Positions 52,841 through 64,000 of a DNA stretch of 64,000 nucleotides are shown piece by piece. Each line of letters opens with the position of its first letter. Positions within the stretch are counted from its first letter, which is position 1. Origin of the DNA: Cystobacter fuscus (GTDB lineage Bacteria > Myxococcota > Myxococcia > Myxococcales > Myxococcaceae); NCBI RefSeq assembly GCF_002305875.1, contig NZ_CP022098.1, forward strand, positions 3,720,001 through 3,784,000. The letters run 5' to 3'. The translations under genes were made by a program, and so were the position numbers. The notes under the pieces were generated by a model, which saw only the letters and a program-made list of their open reading frames with translations, searched no databases and was not told where the DNA came from.

Positions 52841-54181
52841 ATGACTGCCCAGGCCGATCCCCACGCTCCCTCTCCCGAGAACCTTCCGCTTCCGCCCGGC
52901 AGGACGGGACTCCCGCTGCTCGGGGAGACATTGGACTTCCTGCGCTCCAGCCGTGCCTTCACCGAGCAACGGCGGAACCAGTACGGCCCCGTCTTCCGCT
53001 CGCACGTGCTGGGCTCGCCCGCCGCGTTCCTGACCGGCCCGGACGCCATCCAGTGGATCTTCGCGGGAGAGGGCAAGTACCTGAAGAACCGCTGGACGCC
53101 GGGAGTCCGCCGGCTGCTCGGAGCCAACAGCCTGTCGCTGCTCGAGGGCGAGGAGCACCTGGAGCGGCGCCGCCTGCTCGCACCCCACTTCAGCTACGCG
53201 ACGATGCGCGGGTTCGTGCCCGCCATCGAGTCGCTCGCCACGCGGCACTTCGAGCGCTGGGCGGCGCTCCCGGGGGACTTCACCCTGTGGCCCGCCATGC
53301 GCGAGCTGGCCTTCGAGATCGCCCTGTCGCTCATCTTCGGCCAGGACACCGTGGACGTGCCGTTCCTGATGCGCCACTTCCAGGCGTGGACGGCGGGGCT
53401 CTTCGTCCCCCTGGCGGTGAACCTGCCCTGGACGAAGTTCGGACGGGCGCTCGCCGCGAAGAAGGCGATGATCACCTATCTGGATCAGCTCGTCGCCGAG
53501 CGGCAGAAGCGGACCGAGCAACCGCCGGATCTGCTGGGCTCGCTGCTGCGGCACCGGGACGGGGAGGAGCCCCTGCCGCGAGAGACGATCGTCGAGGAGC
53601 TGCAGTTGCTGCTCTTCGCCGGACACGACACCACCGTCACCGCCACCTCCAACCTGATGCTGCTCCTGGCCCAGCACCCGGACGTGCTCCAGAAGGGCCG
53701 CGAGGCGGTGGCGGACATGGAGGGCCCCCTCACGTTGGATGGGCTGCGGGCGATGCCCTACCTCGTGCAGTTGATCCACGAGGGAATGCGCCTCATTCCG
53801 CCCATCGGTGGGGCCTTCCGCGTCACCACGCGGGACGTGGCCTTCAAGGGCTTTCGCATCCCCAAGGGATGGATGGTGCCCGTGAGCATCCGGACGGCGC
53901 ACGCGGGCGATCACTGGCCCCTCCCGGAGCGCTTCGATCCCGAGCGCTTCGGCTCCGAGAACAACGAGCAGCGCAAGCCGGGCACGTTCATCCCCTTTGG
54001 GGGGGGACCGCGCATCTGCCTGGGGCAGCACTTCGCGATGGTGGAGATGAGCGTGATGCTGGCGCTGCTGCTCAAGCACTACACGTGGGAACTCGTGCCG
54101 GGGCAGGATCTCTCGTACCTCCTGGTGCCCTTCCCCCAGCCCCGGAGCGGCATCCAGCTGCGGTTGCGCCGGCGGAGCTGA
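52841..54181 (+). CDS. Cytochrome P450
   Basis: About 446 residues, soluble, full length. I-helix LLFAGHDTTVTA, K-helix EGMR (ExxR), the PERF region DPERFGSEN, and heme loop FGGGPRICLGQHFA with the Cys ligand. N-terminal proline segment PLPPGRTGLPLLGE is typical of the CYP120/CYP26-like group. It monooxygenates a lipophilic substrate using an external redox partner; none is adjacent. The start is ATG 52841. The nested inverted repeat lies upstream. Possible role in terpenoid, retinoid-like or fatty-acid oxidation; not determined. Confidence 0.93.
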   Translation: MTAQADPHAPSPENLPLPPGRTGLPLLGETLDFLRSSRAFTEQRRNQYGPVFRSHVLGSPAAFLTGPDAIQWIFAGEGKYLKNRWTPGVRRLLGANSLSLLEGEEHLERRRLLAPHFSYATMRGFVPAIESLATRHFERWAALPGDFTLWPAMRELAFEIALSLIFGQDTVDVPFLMRHFQAWTAGLFVPLAVNLPWTKFGRALAAKKAMITYLDQLVAERQKRTEQPPDLLGSLLRHRDGEEPLPRETIVEELQLLLFAGHDTTVTATSNLMLLLAQHPDVLQKGREAVADMEGPLTLDGLRAMPYLVQLIHEGMRLIPPIGGAFRVTTRDVAFKGFRIPKGWMVPVSIRTAHAGDHWPLPERFDPERFGSENNEQRKPGTFIPFGGGPRICLGQHFAMVEMSVMLALLLKHYTWELVPGQDLSYLLVPFPQPRSGIQLRLRRRS

Positions 54182-54225
54182 GACCACGCGCCTGCCTGAG
54201 CCGCGCCGCCCGGTGAAGCGTCACG

Positions 54226-54999
54226 TCAGAGGACGGCGTCCACGGCTCGGCGCACACGGGCCCAGTCGAAGTTGTCGGCGGGGTCCGTCTTGCGGCCCGG
54301 GGCCACGTCACGGTGGCCGAGGATGTTCTCCTTGGGTACCCGGTACGTACGGGCCAGGTACGGCACGAGCCGCTCCAGGATGCGGTACTGCTCTTCCGTG
54401 AAGGGCGTCGTGCCGGAGCCGTCGTTGGTGAGCTCGATGCCGATGGAGCGCAGGTTGACGCTGGGCTTCGTCTCCCCGCGCAGCGAGGACACCCCGGCAT
54501 GCCAGGCGGCTCGCGAGTCCTGCACCAGTTGGTAGAGCGTCCCTCCGGGTGCCACCAGGTAGTGCGCGCTCACGCGATTGGGGCCGCTGCCCTTGCGCAG
54601 CGTGGCCAGGTCCACGCTGGCTCGGTTGGAGGCGGTGTGGTGCAGGAGGATGACGTCGATGTCCGTGCCCCGGCGCGGCTCGTGGTTGGGAGAGGGCCGG
54701 GAGACCACCGTCGGCTTGTAGACGGGCACCAGGGCCTTGAGGAGCGCCGCGCGCGTGCCGGGCCCATAGACGCCGTCCGGGGTGAGCCGCCAGTCGCTCT
54801 GGAAGGCCTGGAGCGCGGTCTTCGTCTTCGGCCCGAAGTCCCCATCCGCCCGGGCTGTCAGGTACTTGAGCCGCACGAGCACCGTCTGGAGTCGTTGCAC
54901 CTCGGGTCCTTGCGCGCCCTCTTGGAGCTCACCCTCGGGCAGCGACGAGGAGGTCGGAGCGGCGGAGGAGGGAGATATGGCGGAAGCAGTAGTGGACAT
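54226..54999 (-). CDS. N-acetylmuramoyl-L-alanine amidase with peptidoglycan-binding domain
   Basis: About 257 residues. A Ser/Ala-rich N-terminus, then a peptidoglycan-binding type 1 domain (about 30-85: GPEVQRLQTVLVRLKYLTA, DGDFGPKTKTALQAFQ), and an Amidase_2 domain (about 110-257: VILLHHTAS with the first zinc His, WHAGVSSLRGE, GIELTND, and GHRDVAPGRKTDP with the remaining ligands). It cleaves the bond between MurNAc and the stem peptide. No convincing signal peptide. Start candidates are ATG 54999 (used), 55011 and 55050; none has a clear Shine-Dalgarno. Confidence 0.87.
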   Translation of the reverse strand: MSTTASAISPSSAAPTSSSLPEGELQEGAQGPEVQRLQTVLVRLKYLTARADGDFGPKTKTALQAFQSDWRLTPDGVYGPGTRAALLKALVPVYKPTVVSRPSPNHEPRRGTDIDVILLHHTASNRASVDLATLRKGSGPNRVSAHYLVAPGGTLYQLVQDSRAAWHAGVSSLRGETKPSVNLRSIGIELTNDGSGTTPFTEEQYRILERLVPYLARTYRVPKENILGHRDVAPGRKTDPADNFDWARVRRAVDAVL

Positions 55000-55180
55000 G
55001 GGTTCGATCATACCGGGAAGCCATTCGGCGAGCCGCTGGCTGGCGGCCAACTGTCCAGCCGAGCGCTGAAGGACACGCCCGCGAGAGTTGGCTCGCCCAC
55101 GGCATTGGCCGCCAGCCCATGGGGGGCTCCCTCTGCTGGAGGGAGGCTCCCTATCTTGAATGTGACGACAGGAGGCCTCC

Positions 55181-56665
55181 GTGGGTCAGGCCCTCGACAA
55201 AGAGGAGTTCACTCCGGAAGACGTGGCGCGCTTCTCGGCGCGGCTGGAGGAGTCGCTCGAGGCGCTGGAGCGAGTCCTTGCCCGTCCAGGCTTTGGCGTG
55301 GGGCCTCGCACGTTGGGTGCCGAACTGGAGGCGCACCTCGTGGACCGTGGAGGGCGCGCCCTGGGTGTCTGCGGGGAGGTGCTCGCGCGTGCCCGTGATC
55401 GTCAACTGACGGTGGAGCTGGGCCGCTTCAACGTCGAGTTCAACGCGGGGGTGGTGTCGCTGGCCGGGAGGCCGTTCCGCGAGTTCGGGGAGGATTTGAC
55501 GCGCATGCTCGCGCGGCTGCGACGCGCCGCGGGCGAGGTCGGCGGCCGGGTAGCGCTCGTGGGCGTGCTGCCGACCCTGCGGCTGGAGGATCTGGAACCG
55601 AGCGTGCTGTCTCCCTTCGCCCGCTACCGCGCCCTCCAGCATGGCTTGCGGAGCCACCGCGCGCGTCCCTTCCGGCTCCACATCGAGGGCGAGGAGACGC
55701 TCAGCCTCGAGATGGAGTACGTCAGCGCGGCGAGCGCTTGCACCTCGATGCAGTACCACCTGAAGGTGGATCCGGTGGACTTCGCGCGAGCGCACAACGC
55801 CGCCCAGCTCGCCATCGCCCCGGTGCTCGCGCTCTGCGGCAACTCGCCCCTCTTCCTCGGGCGCCGGTTGTGGCACGAGACGCGCATCCCGCTCTACCGC
55901 CAGGCGACGGACGGGCGCTCGAGCGAGGAGGAGTCGATGGAGCTTCCCTCGCGCACGGGCTTTGGCCACGGCTGGGTGCGGCAGGGCGCGCACGAACTCT
56001 TCGCCCAGGGGGTGGCACTCCATTCCCCCCTGCTCCCGGTCGTGGGCCAGGAATCACCGCTCGAGGTCGTGGCCGGTGGTGGGGTACCGAGCCTGAGTGA
56101 GCTGCGGATGCATCAGGGCACCCTCTATCCCTGGAACCGCGCGGTGTACGACCCCTCGGGTGGTGGCCATGTGCGGGTGGAGATGCGTGCGCTCCCCTCG
56201 GGGCCCAGCGTGCCGGACATGCTGGCCAATGGAGCCTTCGCGCTCGGACTCACCCTGTCGCTGATGAAGGAGGTGGAGGGGCTCGTGACGCGGATGCCGT
56301 TCCGCTGCGCGCGCACGAACTTCTACCGCGCGGCGCGCGAGGGGCTGGACGCGCCCTTGTACTGGCCGGGCCTCCCTGGCCAGCTCCTCGCGGTCCAGCC
56401 CGTCCGGCAACTCCTGCCCCGCCTGCTGGCGCGGGCGCGGGAGGGGCTCGTCGCGGCGGGGGTGGACCCGGAGGATGTGGAGCCGCTCTTCGAGCTCCTC
56501 GAGGGCCGGCTGCGCACGGGCCGCACCGGAGCGCGCTGGCAGCTCGACATGCTCGCACGGCTCGAGGCGGACCGGCCCCGGAACGAGGCGCTCACCGCGA
56601 TGTTCGAGCGCTACCTGGCGCATTCCGAGGAAGGCATGCCGGTGCATACCTGGCCGGATGTGTGA
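55181..56665 (+). CDS. GCS2-family glutamate-cysteine ligase-like carboxylate-amine ligase
   Basis: About 494 residues. The GCS2 fold pattern is present: TLGAELEAHLVDRGG (ATP/metal Glu pair), LGRFNVEFNAGV, CTSMQYHLKVDP, and VRVEMRALPSGPS. Family members ligate glutamate to cysteine or another amine using ATP; the exact partner is unclear because no glutathione synthetase gene is adjacent. The start is GTG 55181 with caggagg 6 bases upstream. It is the last gene before the putative transferred RiPP locus. Confidence 0.82.
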   Translation: MGQALDKEEFTPEDVARFSARLEESLEALERVLARPGFGVGPRTLGAELEAHLVDRGGRALGVCGEVLARARDRQLTVELGRFNVEFNAGVVSLAGRPFREFGEDLTRMLARLRRAAGEVGGRVALVGVLPTLRLEDLEPSVLSPFARYRALQHGLRSHRARPFRLHIEGEETLSLEMEYVSAASACTSMQYHLKVDPVDFARAHNAAQLAIAPVLALCGNSPLFLGRRLWHETRIPLYRQATDGRSSEEESMELPSRTGFGHGWVRQGAHELFAQGVALHSPLLPVVGQESPLEVVAGGGVPSLSELRMHQGTLYPWNRAVYDPSGGGHVRVEMRALPSGPSVPDMLANGAFALGLTLSLMKEVEGLVTRMPFRCARTNFYRAAREGLDAPLYWPGLPGQLLAVQPVRQLLPRLLARAREGLVAAGVDPEDVEPLFELLEGRLRTGRTGARWQLDMLARLEADRPRNEALTAMFERYLAHSEEGMPVHTWPDV

Positions 56666-57087
56666 GGATCCGGTTTCATCCATACCTGCCAACAGCCATT
56701 CCCATCCCAGTCAGTGATGCTGGCTCTTCTTTCGCTGCAATGGCCTGGCGGCGCCCCTCTGAGACAGTCTCCGCGAGCGTTTGGAGCCGGAGTCCCTACC
56801 AGATTCAATGTCACGGTTGGGCCACGGACTTGAAACCGCTGGTTGGGCATCAGAATCCGTACGGCTTGTTCTATACTTGACGGATTACCAGACGGAACGG
56901 CAGCCGGGCCCACTCAGCCGCAGGCGCCGCGCGGTGGTGATGAATTCCCAAGAAAAGTTTCTCCACCATCTTCTTTGTATGGTACGACGAGGCCGCAACC
57001 GGTTGGCTTGTCCGGGATTGCGTCGAGAGAGCGCGTAGGGGCAGGAAACCTTGTACGCCGCATAAGACCGCGGGGGGGAAAGGTCGA
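56666..57087. other. 422-bp gene-free leader of the RiPP locus
   Basis: No convincing gene. G+C falls visibly (56941-57000 is close to half), unlike the flanking coding DNA. A -10-like TATACT lies at 56872-56877, without a good -35. A weak sigma54-like pair is at 56720-56736 (CTGGC, then TCGCT; GG and GC 10 bases apart). Either could drive the RiPP genes, but neither is convincing. The composition change may mark a transfer junction. Confidence 0.4.
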
Positions 57088-59187
57088 ATGAGCAAGAGCG
57101 CAGGGTTGTCGGCTTCGCTTGGAGCGCATGAGGCCCCACGGGATGCTGAACCCCCAGCGTATCCGTTCCGCTCCGGCGCCATTGATATGGTGTTCTTGTG
57201 CATGCCCTATGCGTCCGTTGAGCGGCCGTCGCTCGCTCTCGGCACGCTGGCCGCGGTGTTGAATCGGGAGGGAATCACCACCCGGTCCATCCATGCCAAT
57301 TTGGAGTTCATGGCCCGCATCGGCCGGCTGGTCTACGAAACCATCAACAGTACAGAGATCACCCTCCAGATCGGAGAGTGGACCTTTTCCGAGGCGGTGT
57401 TCGGACCCCAGCCTGACATTGACGGCTTCGTCGACGGGCTGGTTCACCGCGGCTATCCCAGGGACGGGCTGAGGGAGATGCTGCTGGGCGTGCGCGCCGA
57501 GGCCACGAAACTCGTGGATGATCTGGCCCACCAGGTTCTGGCGCTGAAGCCAGGGATTGTCGGTTGCAGCTCGGTCTTCCAGCAGCATTGCGCCTCGCTC
57601 GCGCTGCTCCGCCGCATCCGGGAACTGGCTCCCTCGGTGGTGACCATGTTGGGAGGGCCGAATTGCGAGGGGGAGATGGGCGCCGCCACGCACCAGCAGT
57701 ACCCGTGGGTGGACTTCGTCGTCTCCGGCGAGGCCGACTCGCTGCTGCCAGAGCTCTGCCGGCGGATCTTCACCCATGGTCCTGGGATGGCGATGGAGCT
57801 GCTGCCCCATGGCGTCCTCGGTCCTGCCTCTCGAGGTGCCGACGCCGCGGGAATCAATGCCGGAGCGCCGGCCGATGCCGGGCGTGCGCTGATCCCCAGA
57901 CTCGACGAACTGCCAGTGCCGGATTTCGATGACTACTTCGAGCAGTTGGCGGCCTCGCCGCTGTACGAGTATGTCATTCCAGGCCTGCCGATCGAGACCT
58001 CCCGCGGCTGCTGGTGGGGCGCCAAGCACCATTGCACCTTCTGCGGCCTGAACGGTTCCGGCATGGAGTTCCGCGCCAAGTCGCAGGAGCGTGTACGAGA
58101 GGAGGTTCTCCAGCTCTCGGCCCGCTACGGCATCAAGAAGTTCCTCGCGGTCGACAACATCCTCGACAACAAGTACTTCTCAAAGGTCCTGCCTTTCCTC
58201 GCCGAGTCCGGCGACATGCTGTGGTTCTACGAAACCAAGGCGAATCTCCGCCGGGAGCAGGTGGAGTTGTTGTCCCGAGCCGGGGTGCGTTGGATCCAGC
58301 CGGGCATCGAGGCGTTGGACGATGGGCTGCTGGGGTTGCTGCGCAAGGGCTGCTCGACCGTCATCAATGTGCAGCTGCTGAAATGGGCCTATGACTACGG
58401 TATCTGGGTGGTTTGGAACCATCTGTACGGCGCGCCGGGGGAGAAGCCCGAGTGGTACGAGCGTGTCGCCGACTGGCTGCCATTGATCGTGCATCTGCAG
58501 CCACCGTCGGGTGGTGCCTTGACCAGCATCCGCTTCGACCGTTTCAGCCCCTACTTCAACAAGCCGGAGAGCTTCGGCCTGAACCTCAAGCCCTGCTGGG
58601 GTTACGGACAGGCCTATCCGGTGGCGCCCGAGCAGTTGGCGCGGCAGGCTTATTTCTTCTTCGACGACAACCCGCCCCGCCCGCCGCCACTGCGGCTGAT
58701 GGAGCGGATGGCGGACTGGGCGAGCCGGTTCTATGCCTCGCGCTCCAGTCTGACCGCACTGCTCCGGCGCAGCGAGAACGCGCCGGTGCTGGAGATGAGC
58801 GCCGACGGCCCCCGCTTGAAGATCCGCGACACCCGGCCCTGTGCCGTGGCGCCGCTGCACGAGTTGACCGAGCTGGAAGCACGGGTCTGCCATGCCCTCG
58901 ACGGCGCGCTTGGAGCGCAAGCGCTGGTGCAGAGCCTGCGCCGCGCCGGATGTGACGCGCGGGACGCGGAGATCGAGCAGGTCCTCCAGCGGTTGGTTGA
59001 GCTGAAGATCGTCGGGGATTTCGGCGGAAGGTACCTCTGCCTCGCCACCGACGAGCACCCGGTTCCCTATAGGTCGTTCGGTGATTTCGCCGGCGGTCTG
59101 CTCAGTGTCAACGCCCGCCGGGCGCAGATGAGCCCCGAGGCACCCTGGGATGTCTCGTTGAGTGAGTTGTTCGCCGCCTCCCAGTAG
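57088..59187 (+). CDS. Cobalamin-binding-type radical SAM protein, RiPP maturation (rSAM_ocin_1-like; PoyB/PoyC-like candidate)
   Basis: About 699 residues. The N-terminal third (about 30-270) is a B12-binding-like Rossmann domain (MVFLCMPYASVERPSLALGTLAAVL, VTMLGGPNCEGEMG). The radical SAM core has the cluster C308-x7-C316-x2-C319 in SRGCWWGAKHHCTFCGLNG, the signature of 'ribosomal peptide maturation radical SAM protein 1' enzymes found next to nitrile-hydratase-leader precursors. The C-terminal about 120 residues are a wing-like domain (ALDGALGAQALVQSLRRAG), which may bind the leader. Expected to C-methylate unactivated carbons (Val/Ile/Thr side chains) of the core. The start ATG 57088 has ggggg 8 bases upstream. 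It is directly followed (46 bp) by the precursor gene. Confidence 0.85.
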   Translation: MSKSAGLSASLGAHEAPRDAEPPAYPFRSGAIDMVFLCMPYASVERPSLALGTLAAVLNREGITTRSIHANLEFMARIGRLVYETINSTEITLQIGEWTFSEAVFGPQPDIDGFVDGLVHRGYPRDGLREMLLGVRAEATKLVDDLAHQVLALKPGIVGCSSVFQQHCASLALLRRIRELAPSVVTMLGGPNCEGEMGAATHQQYPWVDFVVSGEADSLLPELCRRIFTHGPGMAMELLPHGVLGPASRGADAAGINAGAPADAGRALIPRLDELPVPDFDDYFEQLAASPLYEYVIPGLPIETSRGCWWGAKHHCTFCGLNGSGMEFRAKSQERVREEVLQLSARYGIKKFLAVDNILDNKYFSKVLPFLAESGDMLWFYETKANLRREQVELLSRAGVRWIQPGIEALDDGLLGLLRKGCSTVINVQLLKWAYDYGIWVVWNHLYGAPGEKPEWYERVADWLPLIVHLQPPSGGALTSIRFDRFSPYFNKPESFGLNLKPCWGYGQAYPVAPEQLARQAYFFFDDNPPRPPPLRLMERMADWASRFYASRSSLTALLRRSENAPVLEMSADGPRLKIRDTRPCAVAPLHELTELEARVCHALDGALGAQALVQSLRRAGCDARDAEIEQVLQRLVELKIVGDFGGRYLCLATDEHPVPYRSFGDFAGGLLSVNARRAQMSPEAPWDVSLSELFAASQ

Positions 59188-59233
59188 CCGTAGCAGCGTC
59201 CGTCCCGCGACACCGCCACGAAAGGAACAGCAG

Positions 59234-59668
59234 ATGACCACCACCACGCCCGCCCCCGCGCCGAAGCCGATGAGCCGGCGCGAATTGGAAGCCCGTATCA
59301 TCGCCAAGGCCTGGAAGGACCCGGCCTACAAGCAGCGCCTGACCAGCGATCCCAGGGGGGTGCTGCAGGAGGAGTTGCAGGCCATCGACCCGGCGATCAA
59401 GCTGCCCGGCGCCCTGCAGATCCAGGTGCACGAGGAGAACCCCAACCTCTTCCACCTAGTGTTGCCGCGCAATCCGAACGACGTCAAGCTGAGCGAGGTG
59501 GTGGGCGACAACCTCGAGGCGGTGGCGCCCCAGACCATCGTCGTGCTGGTGGCGGCGGCCATCGCCGTGGTTGTCAACGCCGCGGCCGCGGCCAACGTCA
59601 ACGCCGCGGCCAACGTCAACGCCGCGGCCAACGCCAACAGCGTGGCCAACGCCAACTCCGTCGTTTGA
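59234..59668 (+). CDS. Proteusin-type RiPP precursor (nitrile-hydratase-like leader; polytheonamide-like core)
   Basis: 144 residues. The start is ATG 59234, with aagga 7 bases upstream. The leader, residues about 1-100, has the nitrile hydratase alpha-subunit-like sequence (SRRELEARIIAKAWKDPAYK, LTSDPRGVLQEELQ, IQVHEENPNLFHLVLPRNP). The core, about 101-144, starts with Thr101 after VAPQ: a hydrophobic half (TIVVLVAAAIAVVV) and then an Ala/Val/Asn half. Asn occurs at 115, 121, 127, 133, 139 and 123, 129, 135, 141, each set spaced exactly six residues. Polytheonamide's precursor has the same hydrophobic start, first Thr and six-residue Asn spacing. The usual Gly-Gly cleavage site is missing. 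The product is expected to be a long, epimerised, N-methylated beta-helical peptide. Confidence 0.88.
   Translation: MTTTTPAPAPKPMSRRELEARIIAKAWKDPAYKQRLTSDPRGVLQEELQAIDPAIKLPGALQIQVHEENPNLFHLVLPRNPNDVKLSEVVGDNLEAVAPQTIVVLVAAAIAVVVNAAAAANVNAAANVNAAANANSVANANSVV
59594..59665 (+). repeat. Four 18-bp modules encoding the hexapeptide Asn ladder
   Basis: Modules at 59594-59611, 59612-59629, 59630-59647 and 59648-59665 encode NVNAAA, NVNAAA, NANSVA and NANSVV. The first two are identical at DNA level (aacgtcaacgccgcggcc). The 18-base period equals one beta-helix turn of six residues, so the core can grow by turn-sized duplications. Confidence 0.9.
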
Positions 59669-59682
59669 GGGGGACCGCCCCC
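59669..59682 (+). terminator. GC hairpin immediately after the precursor stop codon (attenuator candidate)
   Basis: GGGGG (59669-59673) can pair with CCCCC (59678-59682) across the loop accg, directly after the precursor stop. The stem is short (5 bp) and has no U-run. It might partly stop transcription so that the precursor is made in excess over the downstream enzymes, or protect the 3' end; this is tentative. Confidence 0.3.
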
Positions 59683-59894
59683 CCAGCATCCCGCTTCCCT
59701 CGCATTCAGGCGAGCGGGGTGTCGAACCTCCAGCGGGTGGTCGTCGCCTGATCACCCGCAGTCCCCAACCGAGCCCCTAGAGGAGGGGCACCCCCGAGCC
59801 CGGGCCCTCCCACGCCCCAGAAGATGAGTTGCCCATGGACCACAGCCCTCGCGATTCGCAGAGCAACGAAATGACCTACCCGGAGGGGATGAGC

Positions 59895-61403
59895 ATGACT
59901 GAAGCGCAGCCCGCTACGGTGTCCGCGCATGCCTGGCCGCCGCTGACGATCGGTCAGGCCAAGCGCGTGCTGGAATGGTGGTCGTCCTCCGCCGCATTCC
60001 GCGAACGGGTCATGGCCGATCCGGAGCGCGCCGGGCATGAGTACAAGCTGGGGTTCAACCCCGACCTGATCCGCCCGCTCTGGGACGACGGCTACCACAA
60101 GGACCCGGCCAACGAAGGGCGGCCCACGCATCCGGTGGTCGAGGCCTACCGCGCGTTCTTCCGGAAGAAGACGCAGTGGCGCGAGCAGGTCAAGAAGGAG
60201 TGCGCTCCCGACGAACCGCGCTTCAAGGCCTGGCGAGCCCGCCAGATCGCGCGAAACGCCATGGAGAATGGCCAATACGACAACGGCATCATCCACGCCC
60301 CTTTCGCCATCGAGCTGAACGATGGTTGCTCGGTCGGCTGCTGGTTCTGCGGGGTCGGCGCGACGAAGTTCGTCGAAACCTGGCGCTACACGGAGGAGAA
60401 CGCAGCGCTGTGGCGCTCGGTGCTGAAGGTGATGAACGCCAAGATCGGCGCCGCCGCCAGGTGGGGCTTCTGCTACTGGGCGACCGACCCGCTGGACAAC
60501 CCGGATTATGAGCACTTCGCTGGCGACTTCGCCGACATCACGGGCATGTACCCGCAGACGACCACCGCTCAGGGCCACAAGGACCCCGAGCGGGTCCGCA
60601 AGCTGCTCGCGGTCTCGGAATCGCGTGGCTGTCTGATCAACCGCTTCTCGGTCCTGACCGAGCCGCTGTTGCGGCAGATCCACGCGGAGTACACGCCGGA
60701 CGAGCTGACCCGGGTCGAGATCGTCGCCCAGATGCGCGACGCGACGGTGCCCAAGGCCAATGCCGGCGCCTTCCGGGCGCTGGCCAAGACCCGCGGCAAT
60801 GTCCTGTCGATGGAGCAGCGGAAGCTGGCGCAACTGGCCGGAGCCACCCGCGCCGCGGCCGACGCGGGGCAGGAGCCGACGACGGTGACGGTGCCGCAGC
60901 CCGGGACCATCGCCTGCGTCTCGGGCTTCCTGATGAACATGGTCAAGCGCTCCATCAAGTTGATCAGCCCCTGCCGGGCCTCCGAGAAGTGGCCGCTCGG
61001 CTACATCGTTTTCGAGGAGCGCACCTTCACCGACGCCGCCGACCTGCAGCGTTCGATCGAGGAGATGATGGCCACCCACATGCCGCTCGAGCTCAAGCCG
61101 GAGGATCCGATCCGTATCAACCCGAGCTTCCGGTTGGAGCCGGCGCCCAATGGCTTCCGCGTGATGTCGCCGATGACGGGCGTGGAGTTCATGCGCCCCG
61201 ATAAGGCCGAGTTCATCGGCTCGATCGGCCAGCTCGTCGGCTCGGGGGAGCGCACGGCGGGGCAGATCGCGTTGTCGACCCTGTTCCAGTATGGCGTGCC
61301 CGAGGTGAGCACGCTCGGCACCCTGGGCGCGATGTTCGAGCTGGGGCTGCTGGTCGACGCACAGGGCCGCATTGCCGGCGAACTCCCGGGTGGGGCGCGA
61401 TGA
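59895..61403 (+). CDS. Radical SAM RiPP amino-acid epimerase (PoyD/OspD/AerD-like)
   Basis: About 502 residues. The radical SAM cluster C145-x3-C149-x2-C152 sits in DGCSVGCWFCGVG. Upstream, AIELNDGCS and downstream the region WGFCYWATDPLDNPDYEHF match proteusin epimerases, which convert L- to D-residues in the core by abstracting the alpha hydrogen. A possible hydrogen-donor Cys is Cys360 in SPCRASEKWPLGY. Its N-terminal domain (about 15-100: LTIGQAKRVLEWWSSSAAFRERVMADPERAG) resembles a nitrile-hydratase-like fold. The start is ATG 59895, with ggagggg 6 bases upstream (ATG 59889 lies in that site; ATG 59835 is an alternative). It ends by overlapping the methyltransferase gene (ATGA). Confidence 0.87.
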   Translation: MTEAQPATVSAHAWPPLTIGQAKRVLEWWSSSAAFRERVMADPERAGHEYKLGFNPDLIRPLWDDGYHKDPANEGRPTHPVVEAYRAFFRKKTQWREQVKKECAPDEPRFKAWRARQIARNAMENGQYDNGIIHAPFAIELNDGCSVGCWFCGVGATKFVETWRYTEENAALWRSVLKVMNAKIGAAARWGFCYWATDPLDNPDYEHFAGDFADITGMYPQTTTAQGHKDPERVRKLLAVSESRGCLINRFSVLTEPLLRQIHAEYTPDELTRVEIVAQMRDATVPKANAGAFRALAKTRGNVLSMEQRKLAQLAGATRAAADAGQEPTTVTVPQPGTIACVSGFLMNMVKRSIKLISPCRASEKWPLGYIVFEERTFTDAADLQRSIEEMMATHMPLELKPEDPIRINPSFRLEPAPNGFRVMSPMTGVEFMRPDKAEFIGSIGQLVGSGERTAGQIALSTLFQYGVPEVSTLGTLGAMFELGLLVDAQGRIAGELPGGAR

Positions 61404-62584
61404 CGCCGCGGCTCTCCACCGCCGTCGACGGGCTGCGCGACCACCTTGACCGGGTTGGCTTTCGCCAGCTCTACAAGTACATCGCGACGGTGAACCACTA
61501 TGCCGTGATTCCCTCCCTGGTCACGCGCGACACGGCCCCCGCGGTCCACCGCTTCTTCGACACGGTGCTGGAGGGCGCGGCGGAATTCGCCCTGCTGCAG
61601 TGTCTGATGACCGGGCGCGCCGCGAAGCATGCCTCCCTGCCGGACAAGGATCGGGTATTGGCCGACGCGCTGGTGGAGGCCGGGTTGCTGCGGGCAAGCC
61701 CGGACGGGCGCGAGGTCTCGGGCGCTGACCGCCAATTGATCTCGGCCTTCGGAGTGGACCTGCTGATCGACCGGCGGATCCACTTCGGCGGCGACGTTCA
61801 CGAGGTCTACATCGGGCCAGACAGCTACTGGATGCTCTACTACATCGATGTCGCCAGCATCCGCCGGGACCATCGTGCCGTTGACCTCTGCACCGGCAGC
61901 GGCATCGCCGCGCTCTATCTCTCGCTGTTCTCCGACCATGTCCTGGCCACCGACATTGGCGACGTGCCCCTGGCCCTGGTCGAGGTGAACCGCCGCCTGA
62001 ACCGGCGCGAGGCGTCGGTGGAGATCCGACGCCAGGACCTCCGCGACACCCTCGAGGGCCGGGAACGGTTCGACCTGCTCACCTGCAACCCGCCCTTCGT
62101 GGCCATCCCGCCCGGCTACCAGGGCACGCTCTATGCCCAGGGAACCGGCGTTGACGGCTTGGACTACATGCGCGACATCGTCGCCCGCCTGCCCAGGGTG
62201 CTGAACCCGGGCGGCTCGGCCTACCTCGTCGCCGATCTGTGCGGCGATGCCCACGGTCCGCACTTCTTTGGGGAACTGGAGCGCTTCGCCGCGGACGACG
62301 GCATGCGAATCGACGCGTTCATCGACCATGTCCTGCCGGCCTCGGCGCAGGTCGGCGCGATGTCTTCCTTCCTGAAGCGTGCCGCCAGGCTGCCCGCCGA
62401 AGCCGACGTCGCCGCCGACGTGGTGGCGTTCCAGCGCGACACGCTGCGCGCCGAGCATTACTACCTGACCACGCTTCACCTGCGGACCGCGGCGCCGAAT
62501 CCCGGGCTGCGGGTGATGCGACGCGGGGCCTTGCCGAAGAGCCGCTCGGAGGACACATGGCCGGCGCTGCTGCTCTCGTCGTGA
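61400..62584 (+). CDS. SAM-dependent N-methyltransferase, likely acting on core Asn side chains (PoyE/AerE-like)
   Basis: About 394 residues. Residues 1-150 are a helical substrate-binding part; the Rossmann domain follows with motif I VDLCTGSGIAALYL (near residue 160) and the NPPF motif at Asn230 (LTCNPPFVAIPP). NPPF/NPPY is the active-site motif of enzymes that methylate amide or exocyclic nitrogens, as in HemK/PrmC (Gln amide) and the proteusin Asn N-methyltransferases. The core's nine Asn at six-residue spacing are the evident targets. The start ATG overlaps the epimerase stop by four bases, and the next gene starts within its 3' end, so the three are translationally coupled. Confidence 0.85.
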   Translation: MTPRLSTAVDGLRDHLDRVGFRQLYKYIATVNHYAVIPSLVTRDTAPAVHRFFDTVLEGAAEFALLQCLMTGRAAKHASLPDKDRVLADALVEAGLLRASPDGREVSGADRQLISAFGVDLLIDRRIHFGGDVHEVYIGPDSYWMLYYIDVASIRRDHRAVDLCTGSGIAALYLSLFSDHVLATDIGDVPLALVEVNRRLNRREASVEIRRQDLRDTLEGRERFDLLTCNPPFVAIPPGYQGTLYAQGTGVDGLDYMRDIVARLPRVLNPGGSAYLVADLCGDAHGPHFFGELERFAADDGMRIDAFIDHVLPASAQVGAMSSFLKRAARLPAEADVAADVVAFQRDTLRAEHYYLTTLHLRTAAPNPGLRVMRRGALPKSRSEDTWPALLLSS

Positions 62585-64000
62585 CCACGCCCGACATGAT
62601 GCTGCACGAACTCCTGCGAGAGGAGCCGGACCGCGCCACGGAACGGATGAGCGAGGCGCTCCGTCAGCGTTGGCAGGCACAGTTGGGACCGGGCCGCCTT
62701 GCCCGGCGGCTGGCCTGGGCGGCGGAGGGGTCTTCCGGCCCGTCCACGGCCCCAGCCCACGGGGAGGCCTTGCTGGCGGCGGCGCTGGAGAACCCCGAGG
62801 CCCCCGTTCTGTCCGGCGGCCTCGACCCCGCGGCGCCCATTCCCTTCGAGGAGGTGCTCCTGCCCCTGCTCGTTGCCGCCCGGTCCGAGCTGGAGCGGGA
62901 GGCCGGTGCGGCGCTCCGACTCTTCACGCCGTCGGCGCTGGCCAGTCTGGAGCGTGGCCTGCTCGTATTGCTCTCCCATCTCGCCTTGCCCGTTCTCGGG
63001 TCCGAGTTCTCGCTGCGGCGGGCGCTCGCCGGACGATTGCCGTGGCTCGAGCGCCCGGGGTCCACCGACGATTACCGGTCCTTCGTCACCGCGATGCGCT
63101 CCGGGGAGCTCGGACTGCTGTTGCGGGAATACCCCGGCCTGGCCCGTCTGCTGGCGATCGCCGCACGGGGTTGGGTGACAGCTCATGGCCGGCTCATGGT
63201 GCGTCTCGGCCGGGACTGGCCCGACCTGCGCGCCAGCTTCGGCTTCTCCGACGGCGAGTGCCGGGTGGAGGGGATCGCGACATCCTGCTCCGACCCTCAT
63301 GACGGAGGGCAGAGCGTGGCCATCCTGCACCTGACGGGGGCCCGGCCCCTGGTCTACAAGCCGAGGCCCCTCGACATGGACGACGGCCTGCGGGAGTTGC
63401 TCGGGTGGGCGAACAGCGCGGGCTTTCCCTGGCCGTTCCGCGAGGTAGGCCTGCTGCCCCGGCAAGGGTATGGATGGATGGAGCATGTGGCCGCCGCCCC
63501 GTGCGATGACGAGGCGGCCGTCACGCGTTTCTATGTCCGTTCCGGGGCGCTGTTCTGCTTGTGGTGGCTCCTGCAGGGCACCGACATCCACCACGAGAAC
63601 CTGATCGCGAACGGTGAGCAACCGGTGATCGTCGATGCCGAGACGCTCCTGCACCCACGCCCCTTCCCGGGCGTCGCTCGCGGCCTCGGCCCCGGCGCCG
63701 GCCGCGGTGACGACGCGGAAGGGGACTTCGCCCGGGCGCTGCGCGAGAGCGGCTTCCTGCCCTCCGGAATGGCCGTGGATCTTTCCTGCTGGGGTACTGG
63801 CGGAGGGCTCGACACTCCCTTCCTGGTGACCCGGTGCCGAGCGGTCAACTCGGACGCCATGGCCGTGTGCCATGAGCCCTTCCATGTGGCGCCGCGGCCC
63901 AACCTGCCCGTGCTGCACGGCCGGAGCGTGCCGGCTGCACCCCATGCGGAGGCGATCATCGACGGCTTCACCGCGATGTTCCGGCTGGTGCTACGCGAGC
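62557..64000 (+). CDS. LanM-type dehydratase (PoyF-like), 3' end outside window
   Basis: At least 481 residues visible, frame open to the right edge. It has a lanthipeptide-synthetase dehydratase (DUF4135-like) domain: LVYKPRPLDMDDG (Lys268, phosphate-binding), and the kinase-like active site DIHHENLIANGEQPVIVDAETLLHP (Asp343, His345, Glu347, Asn348). In class II systems this domain phosphorylates and eliminates Ser/Thr. In polytheonamide biosynthesis the matching enzyme, PoyF, dehydrates the first core Thr; Thr101 fits. Whether a cyclase domain follows cannot be seen. The start is ATG 62557, with ggagg 4-5 bases upstream, overlapping the methyltransferase gene by 28 bases; GTG 62581 is a shorter alternative. 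Confidence 0.85.
   Translation, partial: MAGAAALVVTTPDMMLHELLREEPDRATERMSEALRQRWQAQLGPGRLARRLAWAAEGSSGPSTAPAHGEALLAAALENPEAPVLSGGLDPAAPIPFEEVLLPLLVAARSELEREAGAALRLFTPSALASLERGLLVLLSHLALPVLGSEFSLRRALAGRLPWLERPGSTDDYRSFVTAMRSGELGLLLREYPGLARLLAIAARGWVTAHGRLMVRLGRDWPDLRASFGFSDGECRVEGIATSCSDPHDGGQSVAILHLTGARPLVYKPRPLDMDDGLRELLGWANSAGFPWPFREVGLLPRQGYGWMEHVAAAPCDDEAAVTRFYVRSGALFCLWWLLQGTDIHHENLIANGEQPVIVDAETLLHPRPFPGVARGLGPGAGRGDDAEGDFARALRESGFLPSGMAVDLSCWGTGGGLDTPFLVTRCRAVNSDAMAVCHEPFHVAPRPNLPVLHGRSVPAAPHAEAIIDGFTAMFRLVLRE

Follow-up and report, generated by a model that had tools for sequence, protein, structure and literature searches.

Polytheonamide comes from an uncultured symbiont, and the question raised by the locus described here is whether Cystobacter fuscus, in a strain with a closed genome, carries a pathway of the same kind in a compact insert, and how the product of such a pathway would be matured and released. 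The window, the whole stretch of 64,000 nucleotides that was analysed, spans positions 3,720,001-3,784,000 of the 12,349,744-base one-contig genome; coordinates past 64000 continue the numbering of the window into two added 20-kb stretches, the first of which overlaps the window by 8 kb. The genome has six above-cut-off matches to the MYXO-CTERM family, a feature that none of 14 control genomes shows. Towards the right end of the window, and for the last of them just past it, lie six pathway genes, all on the + strand, encoding a B12 (cobalamin-dependent) radical S-adenosylmethionine (SAM) enzyme, a precursor with a nitrile-hydratase-like leader peptide (NHLP), a PoyD-family epimerase, an AerE-family methyltransferase, a LanM-type dehydratase and a trypsin-fold serine protease (Table 1). 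Together these probably constitute an aeronamide-type proteusin pathway, in which a predicted 44-residue core laddered with Asn would likely become a membrane-channel beta-helix of alternating D and L residues. The kind of pathway is already known and the locus is a close relative of the characterised pathway for aeronamide, a peptide that kills cells; what it offers is a new core, in which the Asn form a double ladder, and a setting in which channel maturation and release are open to direct testing.

The original prediction, made from the letters of the window, placed the first five of these genes in this order on one strand with ATGA or longer overlaps among the last three, and the frames and profile matches bear this out. 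The epimerase and methyltransferase genes overlap by 4 nucleotides, and the methyltransferase and dehydratase genes by 28 nucleotides if the ATG at 62557 is the start. The locus was also expected to be cut by the right edge of the window, and the dehydratase gene does run on to 64416, with the protease gene following after a gap of 12 bases. All six frames are open and tightly packed or overlapping, with a third-position G+C of 82.7-94.4%.

The precursor, the epimerase, the B12 enzyme and the full-length dehydratase can be assigned because all exceed the curated NCBIfam cut-offs, and the first three fall in the families expected of them. The precursor matches TIGR03793 (NHLP leader) at 66.8 bits against a cut-off of 50.9, the epimerase matches TIGR04517 (PoyD) at 515 bits (cut-off 325) with CSVGCWFC at residue 167, and the B12 enzyme matches TIGR03975 at 655 bits (cut-off 282) and carries the motif CX7CX2C, its Pfam B12-binding match lying just below cut-off (30.8 versus 32.1). 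The dehydratase reaches 351.9 bits for LanM (cut-off 304) as a full-length frame, as opposed to 280 when cut by the window. DUF4135 is the sole domain detected in it and its match to LicM2 (6st5) stops at LicM2 residue 520 of 979; the enzyme thus appears to be of the LanM type with no detectable cyclase domain. Neither the epimerase nor the B12 enzyme has a PDB sequence match at 0.001. Across the genome TIGR04517 has a single match and TIGR03975 one match above cut-off plus two sub-threshold B12-enzyme matches, and a second precursor, epimerase or B12 enzyme acting in trans was rejected on the grounds that these two models and TIGR03793 each have one match over the cut-off. A sub-threshold NHLP-leader match of 31.1 bits is present at genome positions 989550-989771 (L021).

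The methyltransferase family has no dedicated curated model, and the assignment of the C. fuscus protein, P0001, comes from its score against PDB 7rc2 (685 bits, with NPPF present) and its grouping with P0002-P0005. The search returned 67 matches, 61 of them close. Beyond P0001 itself the closest relative is P0002, with 79% identity, which has the length of 7rc2 (384) and a nearly identical sequence. The title of the PDB entry 7rc2 is 'methyltransferase family protein', and we take it to be AerE. According to passages of PMC11285071, AerE has been co-crystallised with its substrate. In a 61-row tree built from 59 of the 61 close methyltransferases (P0041 and P0061 were omitted as short) and two loci, P0001 groups with P0002-P0005 with support of 93/92 and no resolved order within the group; a tree made for this enzyme yields one small clade with P0002. 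The methyltransferase alignment (A1) holds 52 of the 61 close sequences.

A scan of a genome collection gives three named related loci, in a Sphingomonadales bacterium (L005), Rhodospirillaceae BRH_c57 (L006) and a Kiritimatiellae bacterium (L007). Each has a B12 enzyme, precursors, an epimerase and a methyltransferase in much the same order, and the gene set thus recurs around homologous precursors, as the original prediction required. Extra B12 enzymes and precursors, as well as a dehydratase, are present in L006 and L007; L005 has a second precursor, and its contig stops after the methyltransferase. Among 195 genomes of the phylum, the methyltransferase profile has its sole full-length match here (654.8 bits); the runner-up scores 78.8 bits and covers positions 64-276 of 392. 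At E 0.001 a match of some kind is found in 156 of the 195, and such matches are likely general methylases. Across 385 genomes of the class to which the L006 organism belongs, the methyltransferase (E up to 1e-40) is present solely in the genome on which the search centred.

Alignment of the precursor with its relatives puts the leader end at LEAVAPQ and begins the predicted core with Thr. The core contains no Cys and nine Asn, at positions 15, 21, 23, 27, 29, 33, 35, 39 and 41, all of them odd, which form two i,i+6 ladders (15-21-27-33-39 and 23-29-35-41). None of 100,000 shuffles reaches the seven i,i+6 Asn-Asn pairs seen, and 126 of 100,000 put all nine Asn in a single parity, the two statistics not being independent events, as the core is a hexad repeat. 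NX5N is a core motif of polytheonamide, as given in part of PMC9259500. In the cores of 72 of the 78 homologous precursors (P0094 and P0141-P0145 were dropped by the junction pattern, and three cores have 14 residues or fewer), 438 Asn occupy odd positions and 62 even ones, and i+6 is the commonest Asn spacing in most. The double ladder is not unique to the C. fuscus core, because relatives also exceed nine Asn (for example P0074, with eleven). The Microvirgula precursor P0079 has five Asn at 25, 31, 37, 41 and 43 counted from its Thr; passages of PMC11285071 give the same positions as those of the putative methylated Asn of aeronamide, and this agreement supports the numbering frame used for the core. 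Cores built of Asn-Val-Asn repeats and similar to the C. fuscus one are also seen in P0143 and P0144, which have other leader ends, that of P0144 being GG before Cys.

The nitrile-hydratase-like leader on the precursor marks the system as a proteusin, and a PoyD-family epimerase, an AerE/PoyE-type methyltransferase, a CX7CX2C B12 enzyme, a LanM lacking a detected cyclase and a Thr-first core with NX5N, all of them present here, are the traits of the aeronamide/polytheonamide type. With the aeronamide (aer) system of Microvirgula aerodenitrificans the locus has in common an NHLP precursor whose leader ends alike, with the junction LEAVAPQ/T (in P0079), a methyltransferase (79% identical to P0002) and a protease from one family (P0151 of Microvirgula curvata, 69% identity). 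It differs in its myxobacterial host and in its core, which has 44 rather than 46 residues and nine Asn in two ladders rather than five. The polytheonamide (poy) system of Entotheonella has the same kinds of maturases and an NX5N core (PMC9505594, PMC11285071 and PMC9259500, in part). It also has two B12 enzymes, the iron/2-oxoglutarate (Fe/2OG) oxygenase PoyI, the C1A protease PoyH, the inhibitor PoyG and the leader end LDQAAGG (passages of PMC9505594 and PMC10885120), whereas the C. fuscus insert has one B12 enzyme, a trypsin-fold protease and the leader end LEAVAPQ. Family scans of the insert cover eight open reading frames (ORFs), with small or overlapping ORFs, including those in 67957-68480, outside the scan. 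Beyond the window edge the original prediction looked for a protease, a second B12 enzyme, an oxygenase and an exporter. The protease is there, with a trypsin fold and not of the C1 type; the second B12 enzyme, an oxygenase, a C1 protease and a transporter are all absent from the eight scanned ORFs. PoyH, PoyG and an Fe/2OG oxygenase are likewise missing from these eight, no genome-wide search for C1 or Fe/2OG proteins having been made, and the pathway is aeronamide-type and not poy sensu stricto. The polytheonamide-like cluster of Candidatus Caria hoplita, a 25-kb cluster of a sponge symbiont, has an NHLP precursor, a PoyD-like epimerase and an Asn-Ala hexapeptide repeat (GANANA there), a likeness drawn from its description only (PMC7157528, in part). 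In the portions available of the literature on proteusins in myxobacteria or Cystobacter we find no description of the C. fuscus locus; where Cystobacter is named there, another cluster is treated, in DSM 2262.

A plausible course for the pathway is that the leader would recruit the maturases and the epimerase would invert alternate residues, by which the nine odd-position Asn would become D. The form of Asn that AerE methylates is presumably the D form. The N-methyltransferase would methylate the Asn side chains, which at their i,i+6 spacing would line up at intervals of one helix turn and so form two ladders. Thr1 would be the substrate of the dehydratase, the B12 enzyme would add C-methyl groups to the hydrophobic N-terminal region of the core, and cleavage behind LEAVAPQ, likely by the protease, would finally release the core. 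As far as the available passages go, AerE methylates one form of Asn only (PMC11285071), the Asn of polytheonamide are d-configured (PMC9505594), and in polytheonamide a D/L-alternating chain with stacked N-methyl-Asn gives an ion-conducting beta-helix (PMC9505594, PMC11285071). By analogy with polytheonamide, the C. fuscus product may adopt the same ion-conducting fold.

The protease has 361 residues and is of the trypsin-like serine type. His173, Asp224 and Ser309 are invariant across 77 aligned members of its family (alignment A3, with 75 of the 120 listed proteases, out of 181 in total, together with those of C. fuscus and L006), and the predicted model has a chymotrypsin-type fold; by this triad and fold the protease is a member of clan PA. 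The family has one match in the C. fuscus genome, and no strongly hydrophobic segment is seen at the N-terminus of the protein. Rice NARROW LEAF 1 (NAL1) is both the best Foldseek hit by E-value (9.3e-16) and the best PDB sequence-profile hit. It is a plant protein with 18-20% identity, and its domains are placed differently from those of the protease, since the TM-score is only 0.45 and the root-mean-square deviation 13 over the whole chain.

Genes for relatives of the protease seem to lie on the same contigs as those for AerE-type methyltransferases: for 19 of the 60 methyltransferase clusters, the listed proteases include a relative with a longest contig of equal size. The pairing takes in 60 methyltransferases (with P0001 and the distant P0062-P0067 out), 77 of the 78 precursors (P0137 being without a contig) and the 120 listed of the 181 proteases. 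Protease and methyltransferase diverge together across 19 pairs (Mantel r 0.845, which none of 20,000 permutations reaches), the pair P0002/P0151 not being among them. Three genomes whose leaders end PQ/T have the protease; in the single GG/T genome examined it was not found, and an NHLP C39 exporter-peptidase occurs there instead. A hand tally of metagenome contigs of at least 8 kb, too small a sample to carry weight, gives a protease match for 9 of 23 PQ contigs and 0 of 5 others.

For this pathway we predict that the protease acts as the leader peptidase. We also advance, tentatively and as possible rather than probable, a broader proposal: that the NAL1-like trypsin-fold family is a dedicated aeronamide-type leader peptidase, which cuts after Pro-Gln in place of the Gly-Gly of PoyH and C39, is blocked by an N-terminal segment that can hold a copy of the leader, and is the first known clan-PA enzyme to release a ribosomally synthesised and post-translationally modified peptide (RiPP). 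Should the protease prove to be the leader peptidase, it would serve as a sequence-specific (PQ/T) tool and as an easy genomic marker of a rare pathway. Among RiPP leader proteases, the available portion of one review lists the C39, C1A, C96, S8 and S9 types together with metalloproteases; Table 1 cells aside, that portion has a single mention of 'trypsin', which is a laboratory reagent there, and none of 'chymotrypsin'. A search for literature joining proteusin with trypsin-like and leader peptide, with the original aeronamide papers (2019, 2022) outside its scope, found none, and the protease may already have been reported in those papers.

We note that one family member, P0152, from a contig of 70258 bases, is a 430-residue protease with a whole NHLP leader (56.6 bits) in its N-terminal linker, ending GVAPPQ, and is a natural leader-protease fusion. 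In L006 a 97-residue ORF (L006:13639-13929) directly follows the protease gene; it was considered as an analogue of the protease inhibitor PoyG and rejected for want of a significant match or a Pfam family.

Release could also be arranged differently within an aeronamide-type pathway, with the protease serving self-protection or regulation and the leader being removed by a C39 transporter-peptidase encoded elsewhere or by an unspecific protease. Four ATP-binding cassette (ABC) transporters encoded at other places in the genome align with almost the whole of the NHLP exporter-peptidase model, scoring 614-624 bits, below the cut-off of 853, and the protease, its activity being predicted, has the N-terminus described above. 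The leader end PQ, however, is unlike the GG-type site of C39 peptidases and PoyH (PMC10885120, in part), the protease diverges together with the methyltransferase, and the GG-leader genome in which it was not found has its own NHLP C39 exporter; we regard this arrangement as rather unlikely. It is more doubtful still that the cluster is silent or decaying cargo, with intact frames and no product in nature, as might be suggested by the single phylum genome of 195 with a full-length methyltransferase and by broken GCS2 pieces on the right flank, given that six frames remain open, close or overlapping with the high third-position G+C already described. The presence of a LanM-type enzyme and an epimerase would also suit a landornamide-type or other lanthionine-ring proteusin that forms no channel, but this is contradicted by the sequence, in which the core has no Cys and the dehydratase no detected cyclase; the core has seven NX5N pairs and no arginase is found among the eight scanned insert ORFs, and this reading, rejected here, is very improbable.

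We therefore retain the aeronamide-type pathway with a channel-forming product and a leader-cleaving protease, against which several points have to be set. The product, its modifications and its expression are predicted. Some relatives' cores lack the i+6 pattern, the C. fuscus core is Ala-rich (18 of 44) and loosely alignable with its relatives, its modified residues may differ from theirs, and the putative PQ/T cleavage site is placed by alignment only. The Pfam matches of the protease are marginal (Trypsin, 21.6 bits versus 20.6; Trypsin_2, 24.4, below 27.6), and the shared-contig match is indirect, extending to 17 of 36 clusters on contigs of at least 8 kb. A sigma-70-type promoter was not found in 56600-60000, which is weak evidence in a myxobacterium. 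The scanned insert ORFs include no dedicated NHLP exporter, and one elsewhere in the genome was rejected, as no match rises above the cut-off.

Table 1. Positions of the pathway genes and of the accompanying features, in window numbering.
Feature	Position	Strand	Basis or note
Cobalamin-dependent radical SAM C-methyltransferase	57088..59187	+	TIGR03975, CX7CX2C (PoyC-like)
Proteusin precursor, NHLP leader and predicted 44-residue core	59234..59668	+	TIGR03793; alignment with 28 relatives
Predicted core peptide	59534..59665	+	Junction placed by alignment to P0079
PoyD-family radical SAM peptide epimerase, start codon unsure	59829..61403	+	TIGR04517
AerE/PoyE-family Asn side-chain N-methyltransferase	61400..62584	+	P0002, PDB 7rc2, tree
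LanM-type dehydratase without detected cyclase	~62557..64416 (window part to 64000)	+	DUF4135, LanM model
Trypsin-fold serine protease	64429-65514	+	Pfam, aligned family, structure model
Insert, part inside window	56703..64000	.	Absent at orthologous site of G091, G092
Alpha/beta hydrolase	65780-67432	-	Within insert
Bacterial PH-domain (bPH_5) small protein, one strongly hydrophobic segment	67429-67863	-	Within insert

The insert is about 11.8 kb in length, from 56703 to 68480, and holds the cluster together with the hydrolase and PH genes. Two genomes of the same genus lack it at this site: G092 aligns over 53706-56702 and then 68481-69468, with 71 bp unmatched between, while in G091 the alignment breaks off at 56675 and picks up again at 68481, with 10 bp between. 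Since these related genomes have the site without the insert, it was most likely gained horizontally; its G+C of 67.7% versus 68.4% for the window gives no sign of foreign origin. The neighbouring GCS2-family gene is represented at the right end of the insert by two fragments: 68381-68481 shares 89% identity with 56466-56566, and 68315-68382 shares 93% with 56254-56320. These fragments are consistent with a recombination scar.

The hydrolase and bPH_5 genes (65780-67863, L002:9781-11864) overlap by 4 nucleotides, and their products are candidates for immunity/self-protection or export. Upstream of the L005 cluster is the gene for a relative of the PH protein with 41% identity; L007 has a weak relative, a DUF6141 protein with 23%. 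To the right of the insert, 69469-71707 is a second stretch unmatched in G092, with an ORF of 181 residues and most of another of 657 residues, and a 61-base repeat of 68248-68308 lies near its right end.

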